Origin: Stutzerimonas balearica DSM 6083
GTDB lineage: Bacteria > Pseudomonadota > Gammaproteobacteria > Pseudomonadales > Pseudomonadaceae
DNA: 64,000 nucleotides
Assembly (NCBI RefSeq): GCF_000818015.1
Contig: NZ_CP007511.1
Location: 3,048,501 to 3,112,500 of the forward strand
Direction: 5' to 3'
The stretch's first letter is position 1. Each line of letters opens with the position of its first letter. The notes under the pieces were generated by a model, which saw only the letters and a program-made list of their open reading frames with translations, had not been told where the DNA came from and did not search any database. This document shows positions 372 through 12,724 of the stretch, in pieces. The position numbers were made by a program, and so were the translations under genes.

Positions 372-1640
372 ATGACAACAAGCCTGCGCTTCGGCAGCGG
401 CCTTCTCGCCGCCTGCCTGTTCACTTCTGCCCACGCGGCCGAATATTCACCCGACCAGTTCCTGTTCGGCGACTGGAACGGCAACCGCACCCGCCTGCAT
501 GAGGCCGGCGTCGACCTGCAGATCACCTACGTCAACGAGCTGGCCTGGAACACGCAGGGCGGCGATGACCACACCGGCACCTATGCCGACCAGGTGATGT
601 TCGACGCCGCGCTGGACCTGGACAAACTGCTGGGCTGGGCCGGCGCCGGCTTTCATTTCACGGTAGTCAACCGCAACGGCGAGAACCTCAACGCCGAAGC
701 CGACCTCGGCGTGCTGCTGCAGCCGCAGGAGATCTATGGCTATGGCAGCACCACCCGGCTGGTGCAGTTCTATTACCAGCAGGCGCTGCTCGACGACCGC
801 CTGCTGATCAAGCTCGGCCGGCTGCCCATGAGCGGGGACATCTACCCCTTCGCCTGCCCGTTCCAGAACCTCGGCTTCTGCGGCACGGTGCCCGGCTACG
901 TCACGCCCAACTGGTACACCTGGCCGATCAGCCAATGGGGCGCTACCGCGCGCTTCCAGCTGAACGAAGAATGGTCGTTGCAGACTGCGCTCTACCAGGT
1001 CAACCCGCGCTTCACCGAGCGCGAGCAGGGCCTGAATTTCGGCAGCCCCTCGGGCACCACCGGTTACCACGCGGTCGCCGAACTCGGCTGGACGCCAACC
1101 CTGGGCGGGCAACCCGGCGCCTATCGCCTGGGCCTGTGGCGCAACACCGGTGACTTCGAAGACCTCTACCGCGACGGTGCCGGCCGGCCCATGTCGCTAT
1201 CCGGCGCCGCGGCCGCCGAACACGACCACGCCACGGGCGGCTACCTGATGGCCGAGCAGCAGGTCTGGCAGAGCGCGGCGCTGCCGGCGCGACGGTTGAA
1301 GCTGTTTGCCAACTTCATCCAGTCCGACCCGGACGTGACCTATATCGAGCGCATCTGGCAGGTTGGCGGCAGCCTCTCGGCCCCCTTCGCCTCGCGCCCG
1401 GATGACGAACTCGGCCTCGGCCTCGGCCGCCTGGAAATCAACGACGACGCCCGCAAGCGCCTGCGCGAACAGGGCGAGCCGGTGCCCGACGTGGAATACC
1501 CCGCCGAGCTCTACTACCGCGTGGCGCTGACACCTGCGGTTTCGCTGACGCCAAACGTCCAGTACTTCCACCGGCCGGGCGGTTTCGACGAGGCGGAAGA
1601 CGTGGTGGTGTTCGGGCTGAAGACGGTGATCAGCTTCTGA
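372..1640 (+). CDS. oprB: OprB-family carbohydrate-selective porin
   Basis: 422 residues, predicted outer-membrane beta-barrel for passive uptake of sugars or related small solutes. The N-terminus is a signal peptide ending SAHA, with the mature protein starting AEYSP. The mature start FLFGDWNGNRTRLHEAG is the usual opening of OprB porins, and the chain ends in VISF, with the terminal phenylalanine typical of barrels handled by the Bam machinery. The start ATG has AAGGATC about 7 bases upstream. In pseudomonads such porins often sit next to quinoprotein dehydrogenases, which fits the cytochrome-like tail upstream. The substrate cannot be read from the sequence. Confidence 0.85.
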   Translation: MTTSLRFGSGLLAACLFTSAHAAEYSPDQFLFGDWNGNRTRLHEAGVDLQITYVNELAWNTQGGDDHTGTYADQVMFDAALDLDKLLGWAGAGFHFTVVNRNGENLNAEADLGVLLQPQEIYGYGSTTRLVQFYYQQALLDDRLLIKLGRLPMSGDIYPFACPFQNLGFCGTVPGYVTPNWYTWPISQWGATARFQLNEEWSLQTALYQVNPRFTEREQGLNFGSPSGTTGYHAVAELGWTPTLGGQPGAYRLGLWRNTGDFEDLYRDGAGRPMSLSGAAAAEHDHATGGYLMAEQQVWQSAALPARRLKLFANFIQSDPDVTYIERIWQVGGSLSAPFASRPDDELGLGLGRLEINDDARKRLREQGEPVPDVEYPAELYYRVALTPAVSLTPNVQYFHRPGGFDEAEDVVVFGLKTVISF

Positions 1641-1682: not shown

Positions 1683-2061
1683 CTGCGCTTCGCTCAAGCC
1701 TTACTCCCCAGAGCTCCTCAATCTTCACCTTTGCGTACCCCCCCCGTGGGTGTGCCAAATCAGCGTGCTGCCGAATGAATATGGTCGTACCCGATCGATT
1801 GTCCCGATCGCCCGCAGCAAGACCAGCTGGCGTAGGGATTAACCGCAAGCAATTTGAAACCGGCGGGCGGGTCACCTCCTTTCACTGACTTGTTCCACTT
1901 GTTCTAACCGCGGCATCACCGACTGCGCCGCGTTGGGACGGTGTGACCCGGTGCGCACCATCGACGGGCGCCGAAGGGCTGGGAAGCCGCCTGATCAAGT
2001 GGTCAGCCGCAGGCCGAAATCCGTTCCCAAAACAGCAACATAGTTCCGATCCGCGGCGTTC

Positions 2062-2077
2062 TGGCACAGCCGGTGCA
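2062..2077 (+). promoter_or_regulatory. possible sigma-54 (-24/-12) promoter of the ABC importer
   Basis: TGGCAC at 2062-2067 and TGCA at 2074-2077 place the GG and GC pairs exactly 12 bases apart, as the RpoN -24/-12 consensus requires. The site is 63 bases before the start codon of the binding-protein gene. Sigma-54 control of sulfone use is known in Pseudomonas (SfnR), but no enhancer-binding protein gene lies nearby, so this is a pattern match only. Confidence 0.3.
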
Positions 2078-2139
2078 CCTTCAAAAGCAGGCGTCATGCC
2101 CTGTTAGTACAAGTTGCTCAACCGCCAAGGTGAAGACAA

Positions 2140-3510
2140 ATGGACAACCGGAATAGCCTGCTTGCGACCTCGTTACTCGGATCGGTACTGCTGTTCAGCG
2201 GCCCGCTGGCAGCGGAAACCATCCGCATCGGAATTGGCCATCAGAGCATGGTCACCAACACCGTTTCCGGCGGCATCGTGCTGGAGAAGCTCGACCTGCT
2301 GAACAAGCACCTGCCGCGAACCGGCAAGTATGCGGACGCCGACTACCGGATCGAGTTTCGCGACTACGACTCCGGCCCGCCGATCACCAACCAGATGCTC
2401 GCCGGCAAGCTCGACTTCGGTGTCATGGGCGACTACCCGCTGATCGTCAATGGCGCCAAGTTCCAGGCCACCGGCAAGCAGCAGACGCGCTTCATTGCCG
2501 TGACCGGCTACAACCTCAAGGGCACCGGCAACGGCATCGTGGTGCCCAAGGACTCACCCGTGCAGTCGCTTGCCGACCTCGCAGGCAAGAGCCTGTCCAC
2601 GCCGGTCGGCAGTGCGGCCTGGGGCATGACCCTGAAGGTGCTGCGCGACGCAGGGCTGTCCGACAAGGTGACGCTGGTCAACCAGAGCCCACCGGTGGGC
2701 GCGGCGAACATTGCCGCCGGCAAGATCGACGCGCATGCCGACTTCTGCCCCTGGTCAGAGATCATGGAGTTCCGCGGCACCGCGCGGAAGATCTACGACG
2801 GCAGCGAGGCCGGCATCCCCACCTTCCACGGCATCGTGGTGCGCGACGACTTCGCCAAGCAGTACCCCGAGGTGGTCGAGGGCGTGCTCAAGGCCACCCT
2901 GGCCGCGCAGCAATGGATCAGCGACGACCCACGGCGCGCCGCGGAAAAGGTCGCCGAGTGGACCGGCGTGGAGAAGGAAGTGCTGTATCTGTATTTCAGC
3001 CAGGGCGGCATTTCGACCATGGAGGCGAGCATCAAGCCGCAGTGGGTCGAGGCGATGAAATACGACCACGCCCTGCTGCAGCAGGAAATGCAGATCCCCG
3101 ATCTGGATTTCGCCGCCTGGATCGACGACAGCTACCTGAAGAAAGCCTACTCCGACATGGGCCTGGACTACGCCGCCGCGGTCGCCAGCGTGGTTAGCCC
3201 GGTCGCCCGCGCGCCAGGACGCAAACCGGCGGAGATCTGGTTCCAGGACCAGGGCATCGTCGCCTACGACAGCACCGCCGCCATGCTCGCTGCCGAAGCC
3301 AACGCCGAGGCGTCCGGCAACGCCATCAACGCCACCTACGTCTACGACAACCTCACCGGCCTGAAGCTGTTCGGCAAGGCGGCCTACCTGGTCAAGGACG
3401 CCAGCGGCGAGGTGCTGGCCTTCATGAAGAAAAGCGACTCGGAGCAGCACATCGCCCAGCACGGCGGCAGCGCCCTGCTGACCGATGCACCCGTGGCGAT
3501 GCTGGACTGA
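2140..3510 (+). CDS. ABC transporter periplasmic binding protein (SsuA/TauA/NrtA type) with extra C-terminal domain
   Basis: 456 residues with a signal peptide ending PLAAET. The core (about residues 25-350) is an NMT1/THI5-like, SsuA/TauA/NrtA-type solute binding domain: early IRIGIG strand, TNQMLAGKLDFGVMGDYP and the hinge segments are typical, as for nitrate, sulfonate or taurine importers. The last about 100 residues (from AEIWFQDQGIVAYDS) are not part of that fold. They weakly resemble NosL in the order F-D, YVYDN, AAYLV and a late HGG, without the NosL copper-ligand Met/Cys motif. The gene is first in a long plus-strand cluster, 51 bases before its permease. The ligand is unknown; the redox genes downstream favour a sulfur compound. 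Confidence 0.8.
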   Translation: MDNRNSLLATSLLGSVLLFSGPLAAETIRIGIGHQSMVTNTVSGGIVLEKLDLLNKHLPRTGKYADADYRIEFRDYDSGPPITNQMLAGKLDFGVMGDYPLIVNGAKFQATGKQQTRFIAVTGYNLKGTGNGIVVPKDSPVQSLADLAGKSLSTPVGSAAWGMTLKVLRDAGLSDKVTLVNQSPPVGAANIAAGKIDAHADFCPWSEIMEFRGTARKIYDGSEAGIPTFHGIVVRDDFAKQYPEVVEGVLKATLAAQQWISDDPRRAAEKVAEWTGVEKEVLYLYFSQGGISTMEASIKPQWVEAMKYDHALLQQEMQIPDLDFAAWIDDSYLKKAYSDMGLDYAAAVASVVSPVARAPGRKPAEIWFQDQGIVAYDSTAAMLAAEANAEASGNAINATYVYDNLTGLKLFGKAAYLVKDASGEVLAFMKKSDSEQHIAQHGGSALLTDAPVAMLD

Positions 3511-3561
3511 GCCCCTGCGCGGCCCGTGCCACGGGCCCGCCTCAAGCCGAGGAGTGACCGC

Positions 3562-4467
3562 ATGAGCGTCAAACCGACCCCCCTGTTCGATAGCGAACCG
3601 GCAACGCCAGAAGCCGACCGGCCGCTGCTCACCGCTGCGCCGGCTCCCCAGGCAGCGCCGGCTGCCACCGCTTCCGCGCCGCGTCGCCTGCCGCCGATGG
3701 CCGGGCGTTACCTGGTGCGCGTGCTGGCGCTGCTCGCAGCCGTGCTGATCTGGCACCTGGCGACCGCCACGGGCTTCAACCTGTTCATCAATTTCGAGAA
3801 CGTGCCGGCACCGCTGCTGGTGGGCCAGACGCTGATCCAGCAGCTGGGCAGCAGCGAGTTCTACCTGCACATCGTCCACAGCCTGGAACGCATCGCGCTG
3901 GCCTATGCCTACGCCGTGGTGCTCGGCATCCTTTGCGGCGTGCTGATCGGCCGTTCGCGCTGGGCCGAGGACATCCTGCTGCCCTACATCGAGCTGTTCC
4001 GACCGATTCCGGCGGTGGCCTGGATTCCGCTGGCGATCCTGATGCTACCGACTGAGCAGTCGAGCATCGTCTTCATCACCTTTCTCGGCGCCTTCTTCCC
4101 CATTGTGCTGAACACCGTGCACGGCGTGGAGCAGACGCCGGACGTGCTGGTGCGTGCCGCCCGCAGCCTGGGCGCCAGCGATCGGGCGATCCTCTGGCAC
4201 GTGGTGATTCCCGGTGCGATGCCAAGCATAGTCGCCGGCCTGGCGATCGGCATGGGCGTAGCCTGGTTCTCGCTGCTGGCCGGCGAAATCATCAGCGGCC
4301 AATACGGCATCGGCTACTTCACCTGGACCAGCTACACCCTGGTCAAGTACCCGGAAATCATCATCGGCATGCTCACCATCGGCGGGCTCGGCACGCTCTG
4401 CACGCTGCTCGTGCGCAAGGCCTGCGTGCCGCTGCTGCGCTGGCAGCAGCAGGGGGGCCGGTCATGA
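3562..4467 (+). CDS. ABC transporter permease (SsuC/TauC type)
   Basis: 301 residues from the ATG at 3562, which has GAGGAG upstream (3549-3554). A Pro/Ala-rich cytoplasmic N-terminus is followed by a first membrane segment (LALLAAVLIWHLA) and a BPD-type permease core. The coupling EAA-like loop is seen around ARSLGASDRAILWHVVIPGA. This is the single-permease layout of SsuC/TauC/NrtB importers. Its stop overlaps the ATPase start by 4 bases (4464-4467), so the two are translationally coupled. Confidence 0.88.
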   Translation: MSVKPTPLFDSEPATPEADRPLLTAAPAPQAAPAATASAPRRLPPMAGRYLVRVLALLAAVLIWHLATATGFNLFINFENVPAPLLVGQTLIQQLGSSEFYLHIVHSLERIALAYAYAVVLGILCGVLIGRSRWAEDILLPYIELFRPIPAVAWIPLAILMLPTEQSSIVFITFLGAFFPIVLNTVHGVEQTPDVLVRAARSLGASDRAILWHVVIPGAMPSIVAGLAIGMGVAWFSLLAGEIISGQYGIGYFTWTSYTLVKYPEIIIGMLTIGGLGTLCTLLVRKACVPLLRWQQQGGRS

Positions 4468-5336
4468 ATGCGATCGTCTCCGACAACCGCCTCGCCGTGC
4501 TCGATCACAGCCGGCTGCGCGCCAAGGCCGCGGCCAAGGGCGACGGGCGCGGCCATGTGAGCGTGCGTGCGCTGTCCATCGAATTCGACCACGCCGGCGG
4601 CAAGCGCGCCGCGGTGCAACAGGCCAGCCTGGAGATTCGCCCCGGCGAGTTCGTCTGCCTGCTCGGCCCCTCGGGTTGCGGCAAGTCGACGCTGATGAAC
4701 GCCATCGCCGGCTTCGTCAAACCCACCCGCGGCGAGCTGACCGTCGACGGTCAGCCCATCGCCGGACCCGGCCCGGACCGCGGCATGGTGTTCCAGCAGC
4801 ACTCGCTGTTCCCCTGGAAGACGGTGCGCGAGAACGTCGCCTTCGGCCCGCTGATGGCCGGCGCCTCGCGTAATGAGGCCACCGGCGTGGCGCGCACCTT
4901 CCTTTCGCTGGTGGGGCTCGCCGCCTTCGAGGACGCCTACCCCGGCACCCTGTCCGGTGGCATGCAGCAGCGCGTCGGCATCGCCCGCGCGCTCGCCAAC
5001 TACCCCAGCGTGCTGCTGATGGACGAGCCGTTCGGCGCACTGGACGCGCAGACCCGGATCATGATGCAGGAGAACCTGCTGGAGATCTGGCGCGAGTTCA
5101 GGAACACCGTGGTGTTCGTCACCCACGACATCGACGAGGCGGTGTTCCTCTCCGACCGCATCGTGGTGATGAGCGCCAGCCCCGGGCGGATCATCGCCGA
5201 CATCCGCGTCGAGCTGCCGCGACCGCGCGAGCAGAGCCTGCTCACCGACCCTGCCTTCATCGACTACAAGCGCCAGTGCCTGGACCTGATCCGCCAGGAA
5301 ACCCTGCGCGCCTTTCAGCAGCAGAACGGAGGCTGA
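4464..5336 (+). CDS. ABC transporter ATP-binding protein (SsuB/TauB type)
   Basis: 290 residues. Walker A GPSGCGKST, signature LSGGMQQRVGIARAL, Walker B VLLMDEPFGALD and the H-loop VTHDIDEA are all intact. VFQQHSLFPWKTV is the Q-loop region typical of the nitrate/sulfonate/taurine subfamily. An extra N-terminus of about 35 residues precedes the first ABC strand. It completes the importer with the two genes before it and is followed, after 71 bases, by the GntR regulator. Confidence 0.9.
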   Translation: MNAIVSDNRLAVLDHSRLRAKAAAKGDGRGHVSVRALSIEFDHAGGKRAAVQQASLEIRPGEFVCLLGPSGCGKSTLMNAIAGFVKPTRGELTVDGQPIAGPGPDRGMVFQQHSLFPWKTVRENVAFGPLMAGASRNEATGVARTFLSLVGLAAFEDAYPGTLSGGMQQRVGIARALANYPSVLLMDEPFGALDAQTRIMMQENLLEIWREFRNTVVFVTHDIDEAVFLSDRIVVMSASPGRIIADIRVELPRPREQSLLTDPAFIDYKRQCLDLIRQETLRAFQQQNGG

Positions 5337-5379
5337 GCCATGCATATCCGTCCTTTGCCTGCGCCCACGCCCGACATGA

Positions 5380-5393
5380 CCTGTCATGACAGG
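5380..5393. promoter_or_regulatory. perfect 14-bp palindrome, candidate GntR operator
   Basis: CCTGTCATGACAGG is self-complementary over all 14 bases. It ends 14 bases before the gntR start codon, inside the 71-base gap between the ATPase gene and gntR. HutC-type GntR proteins bind short palindromes like this and often regulate themselves. A 23-codon frame (5340-5410) runs across the site but looks incidental. Confidence 0.5.
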
Positions 5394-5407
5394 CTGGAGC
5401 CACGCCC

Positions 5408-6151
5408 ATGAGCCGCCTCGAACCGCTCGCCCCGGGTCAGTCGCCACTGCCGCTGTATGTGCAGATCCGCGACACCCTCAGACGCAAGATCCTCGAAGGC
5501 GACTATGCCGTGCATGAACGGCTGCCCTCGGAAAACGAGCTGATGACCGCCTTCGGCGTCAGCCGCATCACCATCCGCCAGGCGCTGCGCGACCTGCACA
5601 ACGAAGGGTTGGTGTTCAGCGCCCAGGGCAAGGGCACCTACGTCAGCAAGCCCAAGGCGGTGCAGAACGTGCAGCGCCTGCAGGGCTTCGGCGAGGCCAT
5701 GGCCGCCCAGGGCTACGAAGCGACCGCGCGGCTGCTGTCGATTCAGGAGCGCAAGCCACCCAAGCCGGCGGCTGCCGCGCTGAACCTCGCGCCCGGCGCG
5801 GATGTGGTCGAGGTCAAGCGCGTGCGCTTTCTCAACCGCGCCCCGGTGTGCCTGGAGCACAGCTACTTCCCCCTGGACATCGGCCAGCGCCTGTTCGGCC
5901 TGGACCTGTCCGGCGACATCTTCCCGCTGCTGGAGAACCGCTTCGGTATCGGCCTCGGCCATGCCGCCATCGGCCTCGACGCCACCCTGGCCGACGACGA
6001 ACACCAGCCCTACCTCGGCCTCAAGGCCGGTGAACCCATCCTGCGCGTCGAGCGGCTGACCCATGACCGCAGCGGTCGGCCGATCGATTTCGAATACCTG
6101 TGCTACCGCGGCGACGCCTTCAAGTACCAGTTCCGGGTCGACCGGAAATAG
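5408..6151 (+). CDS. GntR-family transcriptional regulator (HutC/UTRA subfamily)
   Basis: 247 residues. The N-terminal winged helix (about residues 10-80) carries the signature RLPSENELMTAFGVSRITIRQALRDL in pieces, e.g. LPSENELMTAFGVSR. The rest is a UTRA ligand-binding domain ending FEYLCYRGDAFKYQFRV, which usually senses the pathway substrate or product. It sits between the importer genes and the flavoprotein gene (11 bases to the next start), so it is the obvious local regulator. Confidence 0.9.
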   Translation: MSRLEPLAPGQSPLPLYVQIRDTLRRKILEGDYAVHERLPSENELMTAFGVSRITIRQALRDLHNEGLVFSAQGKGTYVSKPKAVQNVQRLQGFGEAMAAQGYEATARLLSIQERKPPKPAAAALNLAPGADVVEVKRVRFLNRAPVCLEHSYFPLDIGQRLFGLDLSGDIFPLLENRFGIGLGHAAIGLDATLADDEHQPYLGLKAGEPILRVERLTHDRSGRPIDFEYLCYRGDAFKYQFRVDRK

Positions 6152-6162
6152 AGGAGACCACC

Positions 6163-7899
6163 ATGACCACGATTCACGACATTCCCGTCATCGAAACCGA
6201 CGTGCTGGTGATCGGCGGTGGCACCGCCGGCCCGATGGCCGCCGTCACAGTCAAGGAGCAGGACCCGACGCTCAAGGTGCTGCTGCTGGAGAAGGCCAAC
6301 GTCAAGCGCTCCGGGGCGATCTCCATGGGCATGGACGGCCTGAACAACGCGGTCGTGCCCGGCCACGCCACGCCCGAGCAGTACGTCAAGGAAATCACCA
6401 TCGCCAACGACGGCATCGTTCACCAGCCGGCGCTGATGGCCTACGCCACGCGCTCGTTCTCGATGATCGAGCAGCTCGACGCCTGGGGCGTGCATTTCCA
6501 GAAGGACGAGACCGGCGACTACGACATGAAGAAGGTTCACCACCTCGGCACCTACGTGCTGCCGATGCCGGAGGGCCACAACGTCAAGAAGATCCTCTAC
6601 CGCCGCCTGCGCCGGGTGCGCGTGGACATCGAGAACCGCTTCATCGCCACCCGCCTGCTGAAGGACCCGGACGGCAACATCGCCGGCATGATCGGGGTGA
6701 ACACCCGCACCGCCGAGCCGATCATCATCCGTGCCAAAGCGGTGATCATGGCCACCGGTGCCGCAGGGCGCATCGGCCTGCCGAACTCGGGTTATCTCTT
6801 CGGCACCTACGAGAACCCGGCCAACTGCGGTGACGGCCACGCCATGGCCTACCACGCTGGTGCGGACCTGGCCAACCTCGAGTGCTTCCAGGTCAACCCG
6901 CTGCTCAAGGACTACAACGGCCCGGCCTGTGCCTATGTCACCGGCCCGCTCGGCGGCTTCACCGCCAACGCCTACGGCGAGCGCTTCATCGAGTGCGACT
7001 ACTGGTCCGGGCAGATGATGCTGGAGTTCTTCAAGGAGCTCGAATCCGGCACCGGCCCGGTGTTCCTCAAGCTCGACCACCTGGCCGAGGAAACGATTCA
7101 AGAGATCGAGACCGTCCTGCACACCAACGAGCGGCCTTCACGCGGACGCTTTCACGAAGGCCGGCACATCGACTACCGCCAGCGCATGGTGGAAATGCAC
7201 ATCTCCGAGATCGGTTTCTGCTCGGGCCACTCGGCCTCCGGCGTGTGGACCGACGAGACCGGCGCGACCACCGTGCCCGGGCTGTTCTGCGCCGGCGACA
7301 TGGCTTCGGTGCCACACAACTACATGCTCGGCGCCTTCGTTTACGGGCAGATCTGCGGCGAGAGCGCAGCGGCCTTCGTCAAGGACCGCGCCGAACCCCA
7401 GCTGGACGAAGCCTTCATCGCTGCCGAACTCGCCCGCATCCAGGCGCCGCTGAAAGTCACCGACGGCATCCCACCGGAGCAGATGGAATACAAGGTCCGC
7501 CGCCTGGTGAACGACTACCTGCAGCCGCCGAAAGTGACCAAGAAGATGGAGATCGGCCTGGAGCGCATCCTCGCCGTGCGCGAGGACGTCCCGCGGCTGG
7601 CCGCCGCCGATCCGCACGAACTGCTCCGTGCGCTGGAAGTGCAGTCGATCATTGACTGTGCCGAGATGGCCGCCCGCGCCTCGCTGTACCGCACCGAGTC
7701 GCGCTGGGGGCTGTACCACTACCGCGTCGACCACCCCGAGCAGAACAGCGCCGAGTGGTTCTGCCACACCCGCCTGTTCAAGGACGCTAACGGCCAGATG
7801 GCCCACGGCAAGCGACCCATCGCCGACTACATCGTGCCGCTCGGCGAAGAGAAGGACGCCTACAACCGCCTGCGCGTGAAGAAGGCCGCCAATGCCTGA
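6163..7899 (+). CDS. AprA-like FAD-dependent oxidoreductase (fumarate reductase / adenylylsulfate reductase flavoprotein family)
   Basis: 578 residues from the ATG at 6163, preceded by GAGGAG (6151-6156). The FAD motif VLVIGGGTAGPMAA is near residue 15, followed by EKANVKRSGAISMGMDG, which matches the adenylylsulfate reductase alpha pattern (RSGA...G.....N) better than succinate dehydrogenase. The second FAD segment GLFCAGDMA lies near residue 375. It is next to a two-cluster ferredoxin of AprB type, so the two likely form an AprAB-like complex. No sulfate-activation gene (ATP sulfurylase) is in the window, so the substrate is probably not APS itself. Catalytic identity is inferred; the family call is firm. 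Confidence 0.8.
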   Translation: MTTIHDIPVIETDVLVIGGGTAGPMAAVTVKEQDPTLKVLLLEKANVKRSGAISMGMDGLNNAVVPGHATPEQYVKEITIANDGIVHQPALMAYATRSFSMIEQLDAWGVHFQKDETGDYDMKKVHHLGTYVLPMPEGHNVKKILYRRLRRVRVDIENRFIATRLLKDPDGNIAGMIGVNTRTAEPIIIRAKAVIMATGAAGRIGLPNSGYLFGTYENPANCGDGHAMAYHAGADLANLECFQVNPLLKDYNGPACAYVTGPLGGFTANAYGERFIECDYWSGQMMLEFFKELESGTGPVFLKLDHLAEETIQEIETVLHTNERPSRGRFHEGRHIDYRQRMVEMHISEIGFCSGHSASGVWTDETGATTVPGLFCAGDMASVPHNYMLGAFVYGQICGESAAAFVKDRAEPQLDEAFIAAELARIQAPLKVTDGIPPEQMEYKVRRLVNDYLQPPKVTKKMEIGLERILAVREDVPRLAAADPHELLRALEVQSIIDCAEMAARASLYRTESRWGLYHYRVDHPEQNSAEWFCHTRLFKDANGQMAHGKRPIADYIVPLGEEKDAYNRLRVKKAANA

Positions 7900-7901
7900 C
7901 C

Positions 7902-7960
7902 GTGGGGGCGAACTCGTTCGCCCAACACCTGATGCCATGGGCGAATGAATTCGCCCCTAC
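7902..7960. repeat. REPIN: paired inverted REP palindromes
   Basis: Two 22-base elements (7902-7923 and 7939-7960) face each other across a 15-base spacer and match at 19 of 22 positions. The differences are compatible with G-U pairs in RNA. Each starts GTGGGG/GTAGGG and has the GCGAA..C.TTCGC core of Pseudomonas REP sequences. It separates the flavoprotein gene from its ferredoxin gene and would form a strong RNA hairpin between them. Confidence 0.75.
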
Positions 7961-7998
7961 AGGCCGGCAGCGAGCCGACCGTACCGAGGAGATCAACC

Positions 7999-8232
7999 AT
8001 GCCCGTCGCCACCCACCGCTCCGCCGTCCCGGTCATCGTGGACGAAGAAAAATGCATCGCCGAAAAGGGTTGCCGTGTCTGCATCGACGTCTGCCCGCTG
8101 GACGTCCTGTGGATCAACCCGGACACCGGCAAGGCGCACATGAAGTACGACGAATGCTGGTACTGCATGCCCTGCGAGGCGGACTGCCCGACCGATGCGG
8201 TGACAGTGAACATTCCCTACCTGCTGCGCTGA
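7999..8232 (+). CDS. AprB-like ferredoxin with two [4Fe-4S] clusters
   Basis: 77 residues from the ATG at 7999, chosen because CGAGGA lies 8 bases upstream; an in-frame ATG at 7945 would begin inside the REP element. The cysteines fall as C19, C25, C28, C32-Pro and C53, C56, C59, C63-Pro, giving two [4Fe-4S] sites. The longer spacing in the first motif and the CW.C..C...CP second motif are those of adenylylsulfate reductase beta. It is probably the electron-transfer partner of the flavoprotein upstream. Ten bases separate it from the HEAT gene. Confidence 0.85.
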   Translation: MPVATHRSAVPVIVDEEKCIAEKGCRVCIDVCPLDVLWINPDTGKAHMKYDECWYCMPCEADCPTDAVTVNIPYLLR

Positions 8233-8242
8233 GGGCCGACCA

Positions 8243-9202
8243 ATGAAAACCTACGACGACCCACTGCTGCAGGACATCGCCACCAACCTGACCTCGAGCG
8301 ACCCCGGCATCCGCCGCGTGGCCGTGCTCGAGCTGGTCGACAGCGGCGAACCGGAAGCCGCCGAGCTGCTGATCCTGGCGCTGAACGACCCGGACCCGTC
8401 GGTGCGCCAGGAGGCGGCCAAGGTGGTCGACGAGTTCGACGCCGCCGACATCGCCGACGCCCTGATCGCCGCCCTGCAGGACAGCGACGAGGTGGTGCGC
8501 AACGCCGCCGCCCACGCGCTGGCGGACCTAAAGGACCCCGCCGTCGCGTTGCCGCTGCTCGAAGCGTTGGCCGGCAGCGACGATCCCTTCGTCGTCGCCG
8601 GCATCCTCCGTGCGCTAAAGCCGCTGCGCCATCCACAGGCGCAGGCGCCGGCCCTGGTGCGGATGCAGCACGCCGACCCGGGCGTGCGCCGCGAAGCGGT
8701 GGCGGTGATCGGCTGGCTCAAGCAGCCGGCCAATCTGCCGGCGCTGATCGAGCGGGCGCAGCACGACGACGACGCCGACGTCCGCCGCGCCGCCACCGGC
8801 GCGCTGGTCTATGCCGCGCCCGAACAGGTCGGCCCGGCGCTGATCGGCATCCTGCGCGACGAACACTGGCAGGTGCGCGTCGAGGCCGCGGTGAGCATCG
8901 GCAAGCTCGACTACCAGGCCGCACTGCAGCCCCTGGTCGAGGCCACGCACGACAGTTTCTGGCAGGTCCGGGAAAAGGCCGTCGATGCGCTCGGCAAGCT
9001 CGGTGCGGTGGGTGCGATCCCGGCGCTCGGCGTCTGCGCCCGCGACCCGATGAGCAACCTGCGCAAGGCCGCCATCGGCGCGCTGGGCGCCATCGCACAC
9101 AACGATGGCCGCCCCTTCGTCGAACTGGCCATGGACGACCCCGACCCGGACGTGCGCAAGCTGGCGCGCTGGGCCATGTCCAAGCTCGACGCCGCGGCCT
9201 GA
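8243..9202 (+). CDS. HEAT-repeat protein (PBS-lyase HEAT-like)
   Basis: 319 residues built almost wholly of about 30-residue helical repeats of the type [14 protein letters not shown], recognisable at least eight times across the chain. There is no signal peptide or catalytic motif. HEAT-like proteins of this kind act as scaffolds or chaperones, for example in phycobilin attachment and beside Fe-S redox enzymes. Position directly after the ferredoxin suggests assembly or docking of the flavoprotein/Fe-S complex; this is inference. Confidence 0.85.
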
Positions 9203-9248
9203 TGGACCCACGCCGCAACGCCGCAGCCCGGGCCGCGCACCGACTGCC

Positions 9249-9271
9249 CCCTCTCCCCGCCGGGGAGAGGG
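9249..9271. repeat. 23-base GC palindrome in intergenic gap
   Basis: CCCTCTCCCCG and CGGGGAGAGGG are perfect 11-base arms around a single C. A further CTGGGGTGAGGGG follows. Such CCCTCTCCCC...GGGGAGAGGG elements occur as dispersed intergenic repeats in many proteobacteria. It lies in the 107-base gap between the HEAT gene and fdxA and could be a REP-like element or an internal mRNA stem. Confidence 0.5.
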
Positions 9272-9309
9272 CTGGGGTGAGGGGCCGCTACCACAAAGGA
9301 GCCAACGTC

Positions 9310-9633
9310 ATGACCTACGTCGTTACCGAGAACTGCATCCGCTGCAAATACACCGACTGCGTGGAAGTCTGCCCGGCCGACTGTTTTCACGAAGGCCCGA
9401 ACTTTCTCGTCATCAACCCCGAGACCTGCATCGACTGCAGCCTCTGCGCGCCGGAATGCCCGGCCGATGCGATCTTCGCGGACAACGCCTTGCCCGAAGG
9501 CCAACAGCACTTTCTCGAACTCAACGCCGAGCTGGCCGAAGTCTGGCCGGTGATCACCCAGAGCGCCTCGCCGCTGGCCGAGGCCGAAACCTGGGTGGAC
9601 CAGGGCGGCAAGCTGGCCTTTCTGGAGCGCTGA
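9310..9633 (+). CDS. fdxA: FdxA-type seven-iron ferredoxin (paralogue)
   Basis: 107 residues from the ATG at 9310 (AAAGGAG upstream), exactly the usual FdxA length. [24 protein letters not shown] and [12 protein letters not shown] carry C9, C12, C17, C21, C25 and C40, C43, C46, C50 for one [3Fe-4S] and one [4Fe-4S] cluster. The conserved tail [11 protein letters not shown] and final LER are present. Housekeeping fdxA genes normally lie elsewhere, so this is likely a pathway-dedicated copy, paired with the ferredoxin reductase at 11267. Confidence 0.9.
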
Positions 9634-9636
9634 AGC

Positions 9637-9834
9637 ATGCCCCAACTTGTCATGACGAGTGGGTTGCGCCACGGCGTACTGGCCCTGGTCACGGTCAGTG
9701 CCGCCGCGCTCGGCAGCGCCCGCCCGGTGGACACGCCGGAACGTTTCGTGCGAAGCCCGGAAGCACCCACGCTGCTCGTCAGCGGTGGCCCGGCGCCCAT
9801 GCCGCGCGGCTTCGTCATGCCGTTCATTCGCTAG
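9637..9834 (+). CDS. small hypothetical protein with possible signal sequence
   Basis: 65 residues starting 3 bases after the fdxA stop, in the direction and rhythm of the cluster. A hydrophobic stretch GVLALVTVSAAALGSA (residues 13-28) could be a signal peptide or membrane anchor; the rest is Pro/Arg rich (SGGPAPMPRGF). I recognise no family. Position and spacing argue for a real gene; composition alone does not. Confidence 0.4.
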   Translation: MPQLVMTSGLRHGVLALVTVSAAALGSARPVDTPERFVRSPEAPTLLVSGGPAPMPRGFVMPFIR

Positions 9835-9857
9835 AGGCCGCTGGCCCGGAGAGATTC

Positions 9858-10241
9858 ATGAACGCCTTCACCGCCTCGAATCACGACGCCAACCCCCACA
9901 TCGCACAGCCCCAGCGGCTGATCGACCCACCCCTCGAGATCCGCCTGCGCAAGGCGCAGCGCGTGCTGGAACTGACCTGGCCGGATGGCGCGCAGAGCCG
10001 CATCAGCTGCCTGACGCTGCGGCGGGCCTGCGCCTGCTCCAATTGCCAGCGCCTCCAGCAGACCGGCGCGCTGACGCTGATCGACGCCGAGGTCGGCGTG
10101 AACCGCCTGGAACTGTCCGGCATCAGCGGTCTGCAGTTGTATTTCAGCGACGGTCATTTCCGCGGCCTGTACCCCTGGGCCTACCTGCGTGACCTCGGCG
10201 CCCTCAGCGCCCCCGGCGACTCGAGAGGCGATCCGGCATGA
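9858..10241 (+). CDS. DUF971 (GBBH-like N-terminal domain) protein
   Basis: 127 residues from the ATG at 9858 (GGAGAG upstream). The core PLEIRLRKAQRVLELTWPDG..., LTLRRACACSNCQ and YLRDLG is DUF971, the domain also found at the N-terminus of gamma-butyrobetaine hydroxylase and in some ApbC/Mrp Fe-S carrier proteins. C58, C60 and C63 could bind zinc or an Fe-S cluster. The stop overlaps the next start by 4 bases. A role in Fe-S maturation for the local ferredoxins is plausible but unproven. Confidence 0.8.
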   Translation: MNAFTASNHDANPHIAQPQRLIDPPLEIRLRKAQRVLELTWPDGAQSRISCLTLRRACACSNCQRLQQTGALTLIDAEVGVNRLELSGISGLQLYFSDGHFRGLYPWAYLRDLGALSAPGDSRGDPA

Positions 10242-11236
10242 ATGCCCGGCTCGAGGCGCTCGCCCCGCCCGTCGCGCTGTGCCGCAAGCACTACCCAGGC
10301 CTGGCCCTGTGTTCAGTGCTGGCACTGGCCGGCAGCTTTCTCGCCGATCACTACGGCGCGCCCGCTCTGCTGATGGTGTTGCTGCTCGGCCTGGGTTTCG
10401 CCAGCCAGGGCAGCGAGGCACGCATGCAACCGGGCGTGGCGTTGTGCAGCCGGCAACTGCTGCGCATCGGCGTGGCGCTGCTAGGTGCGCGCATCGGCGT
10501 CGCACAGCTGGAAGCGGTCGGTGCGCGACCTTTATTGCTGGTGCTCGTCACGGTGCCGCTGGTGCTCGGCCTGGCGCTGCTGTTCGGCCGGCTGCTGCGG
10601 CTGCCGACCCTGCACAGCCTGGTGGCGGGCGCGGCTGTGGCGATCTGCGGCGTGTCGGCGGCGATTGCCGTGGCGGCGGTGATCCCGGCCGGGCGCCTGG
10701 AAGAGCGCCGGCTGCTCGCCGTGGTGGTCGGCGTGACAGCCCTCGGTACGCTGTCGATGCTGCTCTACCCGCCGCTGACCGGCCTGCTCGGGCTGGATGC
10801 GCTCGACAGCGGCCTGCTGCTCGGCGCCAGCATCCATGACGTCGCCCAGGCGGCCGGTGCCGGATACCTCGTATCGGATACCGCCGGCGACGTCGCGACC
10901 CTGACCAAGCTGCTGCGCGTCGCCCTGCTCGCGCCGCTGGTGCTGGTGCTCGGCCTGCTGCTGCGTCGGCAGGAGCCGGGCAGCCCGGACTTCCCGCTGT
11001 TCCTGCTCGGCTTTCTCGGTCTGTTCGCGCTGAACAGCCTCGGCTGGCTGCCGGCCGCGCTGCGCGAGGCGCTGGTCGCCGGCTCGCAGGCCTGCCTGCT
11101 GCTGACCATGGCCGCGCTCGGCATGCGCACCCGAGTCGGCGAACTGTTTGCCCAGGGCTGGCAGCCCTTCGCCCACCTGGCCCTGCTCAGCGTCGCGCTG
11201 TTACTGGCGACGAGCCTGCTGCTGACCCTGTTCTGA
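10238..11236 (+). CDS. YeiH-family membrane protein (putative sulfate/sulfite exporter family)
   Basis: 332 residues with about ten hydrophobic segments and the UPF0324 signatures VALLGARIGVAQL, AVAICGVSAAIAV and GASIHDVAQAAGAGY. Members include exporters encoded with sulfonate and cysteate degradation genes, where they are thought to expel sulfite or sulfate. Presence here is the best single argument that the importer and flavoprotein handle a sulfur compound. Translationally coupled to the DUF971 gene. Confidence 0.85.
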   Translation: MNARLEALAPPVALCRKHYPGLALCSVLALAGSFLADHYGAPALLMVLLLGLGFASQGSEARMQPGVALCSRQLLRIGVALLGARIGVAQLEAVGARPLLLVLVTVPLVLGLALLFGRLLRLPTLHSLVAGAAVAICGVSAAIAVAAVIPAGRLEERRLLAVVVGVTALGTLSMLLYPPLTGLLGLDALDSGLLLGASIHDVAQAAGAGYLVSDTAGDVATLTKLLRVALLAPLVLVLGLLLRRQEPGSPDFPLFLLGFLGLFALNSLGWLPAALREALVAGSQACLLLTMAALGMRTRVGELFAQGWQPFAHLALLSVALLLATSLLLTLF

Positions 11237-11266
11237 TCGACTCAAACCACGAGAGAGGAAGGCCCC

Positions 11267-12043
11267 ATGTCTGCACTCGGCACCGAAAGCGTTCTATCCG
11301 TGCATCACTGGAACGACACCCTGTTCAGCTTTCGCACCACCCGCGATCCGGCGCTGCGCTTCGAGAATGGCCACTTCGTGATGATCGGCCTGGAAGTCGA
11401 CAGCAAGCCGCTGATGCGCGCCTACAGCATCGTCAGCGCCAACCACGACGAGCACCTGGAATTCCTCAGCATCAAGGTGCCAGACGGCCCGCTGACCTCG
11501 CGCCTGCAACACCTGAAGGTCGGTGACTCGCTCATCGTCAGCCGCAAGCCGGTCGGCACCCTGGTGATGCATGACCTCAGGCCCGGCAAGCACCTCTACC
11601 TGCTCGGCACCGGCACGGGACTGGCGCCGTTCATGAGCATTGTTCGCGATCCGGAAGCCTACGAGCGTTTCGACAAGATCGTGCTCGTGCACGGGGTGCG
11701 CGAGGTCAGCGAGCTGGCCTACCACGACTACCTCACCCAGGAACTGCCGGCGCACGAATTCCTTGGCGAAGCGGTGCGGGCCAAGCTGCTCTATTACCCA
11801 ACAGTGACCCGCGAGGCGTTCCGCCACACCGGCCGCATCAATGCGCTGATCGAGACCGGCAAGCTCACCGACGATCTCGGCCTGCCGCGGCTGAACCCCG
11901 AGAGCGACCGCGTGATGCTCTGTGGCAGCCCGGCGATGCTCGACACCCTCACCAGCCAGCTCGAAGCCCTGGGCTTCCAGGCCTCGCCCAGTCAGGGCGT
12001 ACCGGGTGATTACGTCATCGAGCGGGCGTTCGTTGAAAAGTAA
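11267..12043 (+). CDS. fpr: ferredoxin-NADP(+) reductase (Fpr type)
   Basis: 258 residues, the normal Pseudomonas Fpr length. The FAD site RAYSIVSAN, the NADPH-binding GTGTGLAPFMS and LCGSPAML, and the C-terminal RAFVEK are all present. It would move electrons between NADPH and the FdxA-like ferredoxin in the same cluster. As housekeeping fpr is normally a stand-alone gene, this may be a second copy. GAGAGAGGAAGG precedes the start. Last gene before a strong hairpin. Confidence 0.92.
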   Translation: MSALGTESVLSVHHWNDTLFSFRTTRDPALRFENGHFVMIGLEVDSKPLMRAYSIVSANHDEHLEFLSIKVPDGPLTSRLQHLKVGDSLIVSRKPVGTLVMHDLRPGKHLYLLGTGTGLAPFMSIVRDPEAYERFDKIVLVHGVREVSELAYHDYLTQELPAHEFLGEAVRAKLLYYPTVTREAFRHTGRINALIETGKLTDDLGLPRLNPESDRVMLCGSPAMLDTLTSQLEALGFQASPSQGVPGDYVIERAFVEK

Positions 12044-12157: not shown

Positions 12158-12724
12158 TCAACAGGTGGCTTCTACTACTTCAGTCACCTCCGTTCGCCTG
12201 TCCGCCTGCTTGCCGAGCTGCCAGCCGAGATAGCCCCAGAGCAGTGCGCAGAGTGCGCCGGCCACGGCGACCAGACCGGCGCCCTGCCCGAACATGTCCA
12301 GCGCCGTCTTCCCCCAACCGCTGACGGCATCGCCGGCGCGGTAGACGACGGTGTCGATGACGTTCTTCGCCTTGTACTTACTCTCCGCATCCAGCGGCGC
12401 GAAGAGCATTTCGCGGCCGGGTCGGACGAAGGCGTACTCGCCGATGCGGCGCACGATCATCAGCGCCGCGAGCACGGCGAAACTGGGCATCAGCGCGAGG
12501 CCGACAAAGCCGACGCAGACCAGCAGTGGCACGATGGCCAGCAGCACGCGCACGCCGAGTTTCTGCGCCAGGCGCCCGGTGATGAACAGTTGCGACAGCA
12601 GCGCGCCCCCCTGGACGACCACATCGATGATGCCGAACACGCGAACCTGGGCGGCTCGGTCGGGGAACAGCTCGGCCACAAGGCGCGCCTGCTCGAAATA
12701 GAAGAAGGTGGCTGTTTTCCTCAA
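12158..12724 (-). pseudogene. C-terminal fragment of an MFS/nucleotide-carrier-like transporter
   Basis: About 188 residues with four to five membrane spans, opening at a TTG (LRKTATFFYFEQARLV) that looks like the middle of a longer protein. FEQARLVAELFPDR, RRIGEYAFVRPGREMLF and SKYKAKNVIDTVVYR are typical of the second half of ATP/ADP-antiporter-like MFS proteins of 400 or more residues. Upstream the frame stays open only to the stop codon of a GST-like remnant (12761-12811). The 5' half has therefore been lost, and there is no credible start or ribosome site. Confidence 0.7.

Follow-up and report, generated by a model that had tools for sequence, protein, structure and literature searches.

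The window considered here is a 64,000-nucleotide stretch of the genome of Stutzerimonas balearica DSM 6083. The host is a bacterium of soil and water. Eleven plus-strand genes lie in a row between positions 2140 and 12043, encoding a substrate-binding protein (SBP) with an ABC permease and ATPase, a GntR-UTRA regulator, an AprA-like FAD flavoprotein (hereafter FP), a small 2x[4Fe-4S] ferredoxin, a HEAT-repeat protein, FdxA, a DUF971 protein, a YeiH-family exporter and Fpr (Table 1). Profile matches and open reading frames confirmed all of the gene content, strand and place claimed in an earlier note. Of the "eleven or twelve" genes counted there, eleven are upheld; the twelfth candidate, a 66-codon ORF at about 9637-9834, was rejected as an unlikely gene because the conserved operator at 9645-9660 falls within its first codons.

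Table 1. Genes and sites of the cluster (positions within the window)
Feature	Position	Strand	Basis
Weak sigma-54-like -24/-12 match CTGGCACAGCCGGTGCA	2061..2077	+	3 mismatches
Degenerate operator-like site CCCTGTTAGTACAAGT before SBP	2099..2114	.	>2 mismatches to pattern
SBP	2140..3510	+	NMT1; SsuA/TauA-type domain ~25-350 and NosL-like C-terminal extension
ABC permease	about 3568..4467 (ORF open from 3526)	+	BPD_transp_1, 90 bits
ABC ATPase	4464..5336	+	ABC_tran, 120 bits; does not reach the NtrCD and TauB cut-offs
GntR-type operator 1 ACCTGTCATGACAGGC	5379..5394	.	Whole-genome scan; conserved in kin
GntR-UTRA regulator	5408..6151	+	UTRA and GntR domains
AprA-like FAD flavoprotein (FP)	6163..7899	+	NF006131, 1038.6 bits; trees, residues, fold
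Small 2x[4Fe-4S] ferredoxin	7999..8232	+	Cys motifs; PDB matches
HEAT-repeat protein	8243..9202	+	HEAT_2, 182 bits
FdxA, seven-iron-type ferredoxin	9310..9633	+	NF045490, 162.3 bits (above cut-off 135)
GntR-type operator 2 ACTTGTCATGACGAGT, before DUF971-YeiH-Fpr	9645..9660	.	Whole-genome scan
DUF971 (now GBBH-like_N in Pfam)	9858..10241	+	PF06155, 74.5 bits
YeiH-family exporter, presumed sulfite	10238..11236	+	PF03601, 205.5 bits (cut-off 24.5)
Fpr, ferredoxin-NADP reductase	11267..12043	+	NF008178, 157.8 bits, best model (below cut-off 390)

Genes for FP, the small ferredoxin and the HEAT-repeat protein occur together in 80/80 named loci, which are the best 80 of at least 594 confirmed matches and therefore a sample biased to the window's kin; this co-occurrence is not chance. 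Within the same best 80, GntR is found in 70, SBP in 67 and DUF971 in 66. Relatives are found in three phyla, Proteobacteria, Cyanobacteria and Actinobacteria. FP and the HEAT-repeat protein are fused in two actinobacterial records (L114 and L122), and an Mrp/NBP35 protein takes the DUF971 position in three cyanobacterial loci. The HEAT-repeat protein is presumably a scaffold, and the DUF971/GBBH-like_N protein presumably a helper of Fe-S maturation. No description of the cluster was recognised in the open literature searched.

Lineage and active site of the flavoprotein

FP passes the curated NF006131/PRK08275 model at 1038.6 bits (cut-off 587) and is named fumarate reductase/succinate dehydrogenase flavoprotein by NCBI. 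That name would suit a fumarate-reductase-like oxidoreductase acting on an imported carbon or nitrogen compound, with YeiH and TauE exporting some other anion, but the tree argues against such a reading. FP, AprA and the PAPS reductases (PAPSR) are split from SDH/FRD-type and NadB-type proteins at 100/100, with an outgroup of E. coli FrdA, six SDH/FRD-type and five NadB-type rows, the latter two sets being named by motif, and the same split is recovered without E. coli FrdA. A position among fumarate reductases or aspartate oxidases, which the earlier note had named as evidence against its own proposal, did not occur. Where SDH/FRD have the motif RSHT with its covalent-FAD histidine, FP has RSGA, with Gly at position 51 in 118/118 sequences; the catalytic Arg of SdhA/FrdA is missing as well. 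Identity with fumarate reductase was rejected on the split and the missing histidine, and identity with aspartate oxidase on the split; FP is, on sequence, a sister lineage to the APS/PAPS reductases.

From its lineage and fold, FP might be a genuine APS or PAPS reductase that assimilates sulfate, an identity that we consider very improbable and that was rejected on lost arginines and on model scores. FP lies far below the cut-off of the AprA model TIGR02061 (165.1 bits, cut-off 641.75) and below that of the PAPSR-like PRK06854 model NF005331 (279.4 bits, cut-off 557), and the small ferredoxin is likewise below the AprB model TIGR02060 (27.6 bits, cut-off 135.65). At the position of the AprA substrate arginine R265 (Archaeoglobus numbering, counted off the 2fja alignment), Leu is present in 118/118 FP sequences, compared with Arg in 17/17 AprA and 2/2 PAPSR-type rows. 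The region of a second substrate arginine, R317, corresponds to FP 276-289, where Arg is found in 0/118; the alignment is gapped there, and 22/118 carry Arg at 290, 291 or 297. FP N61 and H356 are present in 118/118, matching the AprA active-site Asn and His (N74 and H398). Judged by its pocket, FP is not an APS reductase, since the R265 position is Leu throughout and four cysteines (Cys 241, 256, 353 and 499) have become invariant in the alignment of 118 FP sequences. Moreover, none of the cluster's eleven genes encodes ATP sulfurylase (sat), APS kinase or aprM, and to our knowledge nucleotides are not cargo of SsuA-type importers. The label "AprAB-like" given earlier, taken as APS chemistry, is accordingly unsupported: key residues are lost in 118/118, and the AprA, AprB and PRK06854 scores are far below cut-off.

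The best fold match of FP is MtPAPSR of Methanothermococcus (8a8o), in a model with pLDDT <50 in several active-site stretches. MtPAPSR shares with FP the fold and length of the FAD alpha-subunit and a small 2x[4Fe-4S] partner, but it keeps Arg at the R265 position and lacks all four invariant cysteines. Dissimilatory AprAB resembles the FP system in having no covalent-FAD His, in its active-site Asn/His pair and in its 2x[4Fe-4S] partner, and differs from it in the substrate arginines, missing from FP, and in sat and aprM. The small ferredoxin has the motifs C-x5-C-x2-C-x3-CP and C-x2-C-x2-C-x3-CP in 93/93 sequences, and its best PDB match is the FwdF polyferredoxin (53 bits), followed by AprB (34) and the PAPSR beta subunit (30). 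By analogy with AprB and AprA, it is presumed to be the partner of FP, itself a presumed catalytic subunit or electron-transfer partner.

Operators and linkage to putative sulfite exporters

In the window the GntR-FP and DUF971-YeiH-Fpr gene groups have an operator in common, whose pattern, allowing at most one mismatch, has only two matches in the whole genome, both in the cluster. The GntR-UTRA regulator is presumed to bind these palindromic sites. In some gammaproteobacterial loci, sites before SBP are closer to the pattern than CCCTGTTAGTACAAGT.

The exporter passes PF03601 and not the narrower TIGR00698 (122.6 bits, cut-off 232.6). Within the genus, a YeiH of the window's type adjoins FP in 11/12 FP-positive genomes and is absent from 25/25 FP-negative ones (Fisher 1.4e-8). 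More widely, a YeiH/TauE homologue was seen in 23/80 FP loci and 0/20 control stretches (p 0.003, not corrected for kinship); that it is seen in just 23 of the 80 counts against the reading preferred below. Azoarcus (8022-8037 of locus L039, the TauE match running from 8074) and Methyloversatilis (4577-4592 of L194) each have an operator match without mismatches where a TauE gene starts. In Marinobacter L196 a site at 3265-3280 stands at the start of a TauE gene unlinked to FP; it is a single match with 1 mismatch, and a control pattern also gives one in the same genome. Sulfite resistance of Salmonella requires YeiH (PMC12880088) and a Hyphomicrobium YeiH is termed a sulfite exporter (PMC12423496). 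It is this linkage that points to sulfite as a product.

Sulfite exporters would also suit the opposite direction, in which FP would detoxify sulfite by oxidising it or by attaching it to an imported acceptor, and YeiH would serve as a safety valve. A LysR regulator with similarity to YeiE adjoins YeiH in three loci, and AprAB is described as reversible. Against the reading preferred below, the LysR beside YeiH in two loci matches a selenium-linked LysR model better than the YeiE model, neither at cut-off; all selenium-linked transporter models (Sao) are below cut-off. A dedicated importer and a low-potential FdxA/Fpr chain better fit uptake and reduction, and for PAPSR, the nearest fold, a reverse reaction was not measurable; we find the opposite direction decidedly improbable. 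Compared with YeiE-YeiH/TauE sulfite export, the cluster shares the exporter family and, in a few loci, the YeiE-resembling LysR, but places its exporter at a GntR-type operator together with importer and redox genes.

Importer, oxygenases and a candidate reductive route

SBP is nearest to SsuA in sequence, scoring 128.6 bits with the SsuA model TIGR01728 (SsuA_fam), below its cut-off of 163.5, and its fold is SsuA-like. The predicted ligand is a sulfonate-type anion. Nitrate and bicarbonate binding proteins (NrtA, CmpA) have the same fold at nearly equal Z, which would also suit import of a non-sulfur compound, as would the sigma-54-like promoters of some loci, compatible with nitrogen control too, and Burkholderia locus L072, which adjoins apparent ureide-catabolism genes (read by eye). 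Against these stand, besides the tree and the missing SdhA/FrdA residues, the linkage to sulfite exporters and a Nostoc locus with metX and an O-acetylhomoserine sulfhydrylase gene less than 10 kb away, and a non-sulfur substrate is improbable.

The cluster shares an SsuA/TauA-type importer with SsuEADCB and TauABCD, but has a flavoprotein and Fe-S chain in the oxygenase's stead. The earlier observation that SsuD is missing holds for the cluster and also genome-wide, where the best score is 35.3 bits against a cut-off of 518; the corresponding statement on TauD holds for the cluster and not for the genome, in which a single TauD-family protein, above cut-off at 72.9 bits, is encoded outside the cluster. 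Exclusion of SsuD was rejected as support for an FP route, SsuD being present in 2/12 FP-positive and 7/25 FP-negative genomes of the genus (p 0.69).

An oxygenase encoded elsewhere is central to another reading, in which FP, the ferredoxin and SBP are AsfA, AsfB and AsfC, forming an arylsulfonate importer and an electron chain that feeds it. In review descriptions, asf comprises a binding protein, an ABC transporter, a reductase/ferredoxin and a LysR regulator, is required for aromatic and not aliphatic sulfonates in Pseudomonas putida S-313, and serves an oxygenase. AsfA and AsfB carry adjacent locus tags in Cupriavidus metallidurans, and asfA is reported from taxa that overlap the FP family. 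The order FP-ferredoxin-SBP-permease-ATPase is frequent in betaproteobacterial and Pseudomonas loci, while in the window the importer genes precede FP, and flavin-dependent monooxygenase-type genes adjoin the cluster in a Cupriavidus and a Sinorhizobium plasmid. However, the window has GntR where AsfRABC, going by its descriptions, has the LysR protein AsfR, and a LysR in GntR's place was found in 0/42 short loci (GntR itself scored in 27/42 within the limits set); two cyanobacterial loci have a divergent LysR. HEAT, FdxA, DUF971, YeiH and Fpr belong to the cluster, whereas the asf descriptions consulted name none of them. No AsfA-named protein appeared among the matches listed (120 per search, of thousands), and 10/12 FP-positive genomes of the genus, like this genome, are without SsuD. 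FMN (LLM) monooxygenases, as candidate partners of FP, were not supported, being found in 7/80 loci and 1/20 controls, and one Rieske oxygenase query had no matches near FP. We regard an Asf-type system as the main alternative, though an unlikely one.

The reading we prefer, with about even confidence, is a GntR-repressed sulfur-acquisition regulon in which an imported sulfonate-type compound is reductively cleaved and sulfite expelled. Of the sulfur-redox route first proposed, it keeps a dedicated importer with a redox chain and an exporter for sulfite, supported by the shared operator, the TauE sites and the SsuA-like fold of SBP, and drops APS chemistry. The binding protein and ABC importer would take up the anion, and electrons would pass from NADPH through Fpr, FdxA and the small ferredoxin to the non-covalent FAD of FP. 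The presence of FdxA and Fpr, the sister position of FP to the APS/PAPS reductases and its fold match to PAPSR speak for such a reductive chain. Held on the HEAT-repeat protein, FP would cleave the S-X bond of the substrate by two-electron reduction and free sulfite, with DUF971 aiding Fe-S loading. Sulfite would be assimilated and its surplus expelled through YeiH, or TauE in some other genomes. More tentatively, FP and the small ferredoxin may be an O2-independent flavin/[4Fe-4S] desulfonating reductase for imported sulfonates or S-/N-sulfo compounds, its pocket being that of an APS reductase remodelled by Leu in place of the substrate Arg and by the newly invariant cysteines, in Proteobacteria, Cyanobacteria and Actinobacteria. 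Several points count against the preferred reading. For a flavin, nucleophilic attack on a simple alkyl sulfonate is difficult chemistry, whereas S-S, N-S or aryl leaving groups are easier, and the cluster is present in the sulfur oxidiser Acidithiobacillus caldus, for which scarce sulfur is unlikely. The near-equal NrtA/CmpA folds, the SsuA score under its cut-off, the sigma-54-like promoters and the oxygenase that reviews assign to the look-alike Asf system weigh in the same direction.

The operator, exporter linkage and residue pattern make the hypothesis directly testable. If true, it would assign a role to a large family that currently bears the name fumarate reductase; were the reductive route widespread, organosulfur use would have to be predicted differently from genomes, and if AsfAB belong to the family of FP and its ferredoxin, their accepted role as oxygenase electron supplier would need re-examination. 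Among other loci, YeiH and TauE are both present in Pseudanabaena and Leptolyngbya, in favour of sulfite as product, and, in favour of the reductive chain, the distal operator lies instead at an FAD/FNR-like protein in four (Thiobacillus, Hydrogenophilales, Halothiobacillus and a proteobacterial MAG).

Conservation and gene order of the cluster

The cluster is genuine and conserved, and its regulation is tight. All eleven genes listed in an earlier note were found on the plus strand and in the order claimed there, in a genome of 4.38 Mb on one contig. Its AprA-like flavoprotein (FP) is 100% identical (rounded) over the full length in four Stutzerimonas records (L013, L014, L015 and L026). A scan of one genome per species with the FP protein gave at least 594 confirmed matches, of which the best 80 loci, a sample skewed toward the window's kin, were searched in all six frames with profiles made from the window genes. 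FP, the small 2x[4Fe-4S] ferredoxin (Fd) and HEAT were present in all 80 of these best matches, followed by GntR (70), the importer's ATPase (68), its permease and substrate-binding protein (SBP; 67 each), DUF971 (66), FdxA (37), Fpr (24) and YeiH (20); some absences are contig ends, since 12 of the 80 loci span less than 18 kb. FP occurs in 75 of 248 Pseudomonadaceae genomes, and 54 of the 55 plasmid-collection records matched carry FP or a piece of one, the last holding a distant APS-reductase-like protein (28% identity).

Most gammaproteobacterial loci read SBP-permease-ATPase-GntR-FP-Fd-HEAT-FdxA-DUF971-YeiH-Fpr, many Burkholderiales and Pseudomonas loci GntR-FP-Fd-SBP-permease-ATPase-HEAT-DUF971, and Thiobacillus-type loci GntR-FP-Fd-HEAT-FdxA-SBP-permease-ATPase. 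Two cyanobacterial plasmids hold SBP-permease-ATPase, FP-Fd-HEAT and YeiH together with TauE, an Mrp/NBP35 protein standing where DUF971 would be. In Tsukamurella and Nonomuraea FP and HEAT lie within a single reading frame, the best evidence for their joint action.

At the window's cluster edges, a porin ORF directly precedes the importer, its family (cluster 54) recurring in L013 and L015 only, and the short ORF adjoining Fpr resembles the tail of a truncated gene. An annotated OprD porin adjoins the FP cluster of A. caldus. GNAT and amidase genes, present at the Nostoc locus, likewise follow FP-Fd-HEAT in Methylocystis; the imported compound might thus be an amide or an amine.

Coordinates of features in the window and in other fetched loci
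Feature	Position	Strand	Remark
Cluster	window 2140-12043	plus	eleven genes
FP	window 6163-7899	plus	
Operator site 1	window 5379-5394		at most 1 mismatch
Operator site 2	window 9645-9660		at most 1 mismatch
Porin ORF	window 372-1640		OprB-like, named by eye
Short ORF	window 12158-12724	minus	transporter-like, TTG start, by eye
GltD/FNR-like protein	L069:16824-20405		1194 residues; NF005128 584 bits, cut-off 1072
Nostoc FP locus	L113:11692-19411		two HAD hydrolases, methyltransferase, two GNATs, amidase
Cyanobacterial LysR	L118:7661-9661		240 bits to SBP profile; also NMT1_2
Cyanobacterial LysR	L121:7397-9433		253 bits to SBP profile
Methyloversatilis second FP copy	L194 (G368:C31:34000-42000)		LysR, YeiH, TauE, two operator matches
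Caballeronia operator match	L195 (G366:C28:44500-52500)		perfect match

Putative operator and promoters

We infer that GntR binds a palindromic operator, ACYTGTYATRACARGT, which lies upstream of its gene. Of 81 loci (the 80 named and the window), 60 have the palindrome, with no more than two mismatches, in the 1.3 kb ahead of the FP frame; all 42 short loci (two sets, 30 and 12) have it with at most one. Across the entire genome of the window this stricter threshold leaves just two matches, both inside the cluster, and one further place with two mismatches brings the total to three; as a reversed-pattern control gives four, it is the placing of the matches, not their count, that is telling. 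Across 20 other FP-bearing genomes, 26 places in 19 genomes match with at most one mismatch, against 8 places in 8 genomes for the control, and 14 of the 20 have exactly one, the site inside the fetched FP locus. In gammaproteobacterial loci the second site precedes DUF971-YeiH-Fpr; four loci (L029, L037, L040 and L063) have it at an FAD/FNR-like protein about 1,190 residues long. Both forms of the electron supplier thus have this operator in common. Sigma-54-like promoters (at most two mismatches) precede GntR in 15 of 74 loci and SBP in 7 of 65, with matches in under 1% of mononucleotide shuffles; the window's own match has three mismatches.

Relatives of the L069 GltD/FNR-like protein, which may stand in for Fpr, lie downstream in nine fetched loci, including Thiobacillus, Hydrogenophilales and Halothiobacillus. 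The Caballeronia match lies near a different GntR gene, beside a TauD-like dioxygenase and an aldehyde dehydrogenase (all by eye), and perhaps reflects a paralogous regulator with a similar operator.

Probable sulfite release and putative exporters

Sulfite is probably a product of the system. Within the genus, 11 of 12 FP-bearing genomes have a cluster-type YeiH (200-213 bits) no more than about 4 kb from FP, and none of the 25 genomes lacking FP has one; another YeiH type (282-290 bits) occurs in 6 of those 25 and in the window's genome too. YeiH or TauE homologues accompany 23 of 80 FP loci against none of 20 control stretches (20 kb each, chosen at round positions from 8 genomes with FP), with p 0.003, a generous value, the loci being kin. 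One study reports that yeiH deletion makes Salmonella sulfite-sensitive (PMC12880088). In L039 and the second Methyloversatilis FP copy, a LysR gene, YeiH, operator, TauE, GntR and FP follow in succession; LysR of L080 and L194 scores 179-187 bits against the YeiE model (cut-off 480) and 212-220 against a selenium-linked LysR model (cut-off 250). Marinobacter's sole operator site outside the cluster sits at a TauE gene, though one match in that genome is expected by chance. The Nostoc locus carries metX and an O-acetylhomoserine sulfhydrylase within 10 kb. The exporter is missing from Thiobacillus-type FP loci, as would be expected if these cells oxidise sulfite on their own.

Predicted reaction and substrate

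The substrate would be imported, reduced by electrons passing along NADPH-Fpr-FdxA-Fd-FAD and cleaved at sulfur, and sulfite would be exported. We give this whole scheme an even chance, lean modestly toward the reductive direction, and regard FP only tentatively as an oxygen-independent desulfonating reductase across three phyla. The strongest rival on mechanism comes from AsfRABC, the arylsulfonate system of Pseudomonas putida S-313, since later papers describe it as an electron-transfer kit serving an oxygenase. As described there, it is built from components of the same types, and the gene order of betaproteobacterial and Pseudomonas FP loci fits its name order; SsuD is absent from the window's whole genome, so any Asf-type partner would be another enzyme. 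By analogy, AsfRABC is also the strongest lead for a substrate class, aryl sulfonates. Chemically, a thiolate, amine, phenolate or activated carbon should leave more readily than an alkyl carbanion, and S-sulfo, N-sulfo or arylsulfonate compounds are therefore first guesses, among which the data choose none.

SBP consists of an SsuA/TauA-type domain followed by a C-terminal extension weakly similar to NosL (E 0.0036, below gathering). A full-length profile, with the extension, takes in the members from Pseudanabaena, Leptolyngbya, Tsukamurella and Nonomuraea. SsuA is the closest match in both sequence and fold, although SBP scores below the cut-off of the SsuA model; in fold, binding proteins for nitrate and bicarbonate follow closely. 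The cyanobacterial LysR regulators adjoining FP match the SBP profile with their C-terminal domain and are perhaps one-component sensors of the imported compound.
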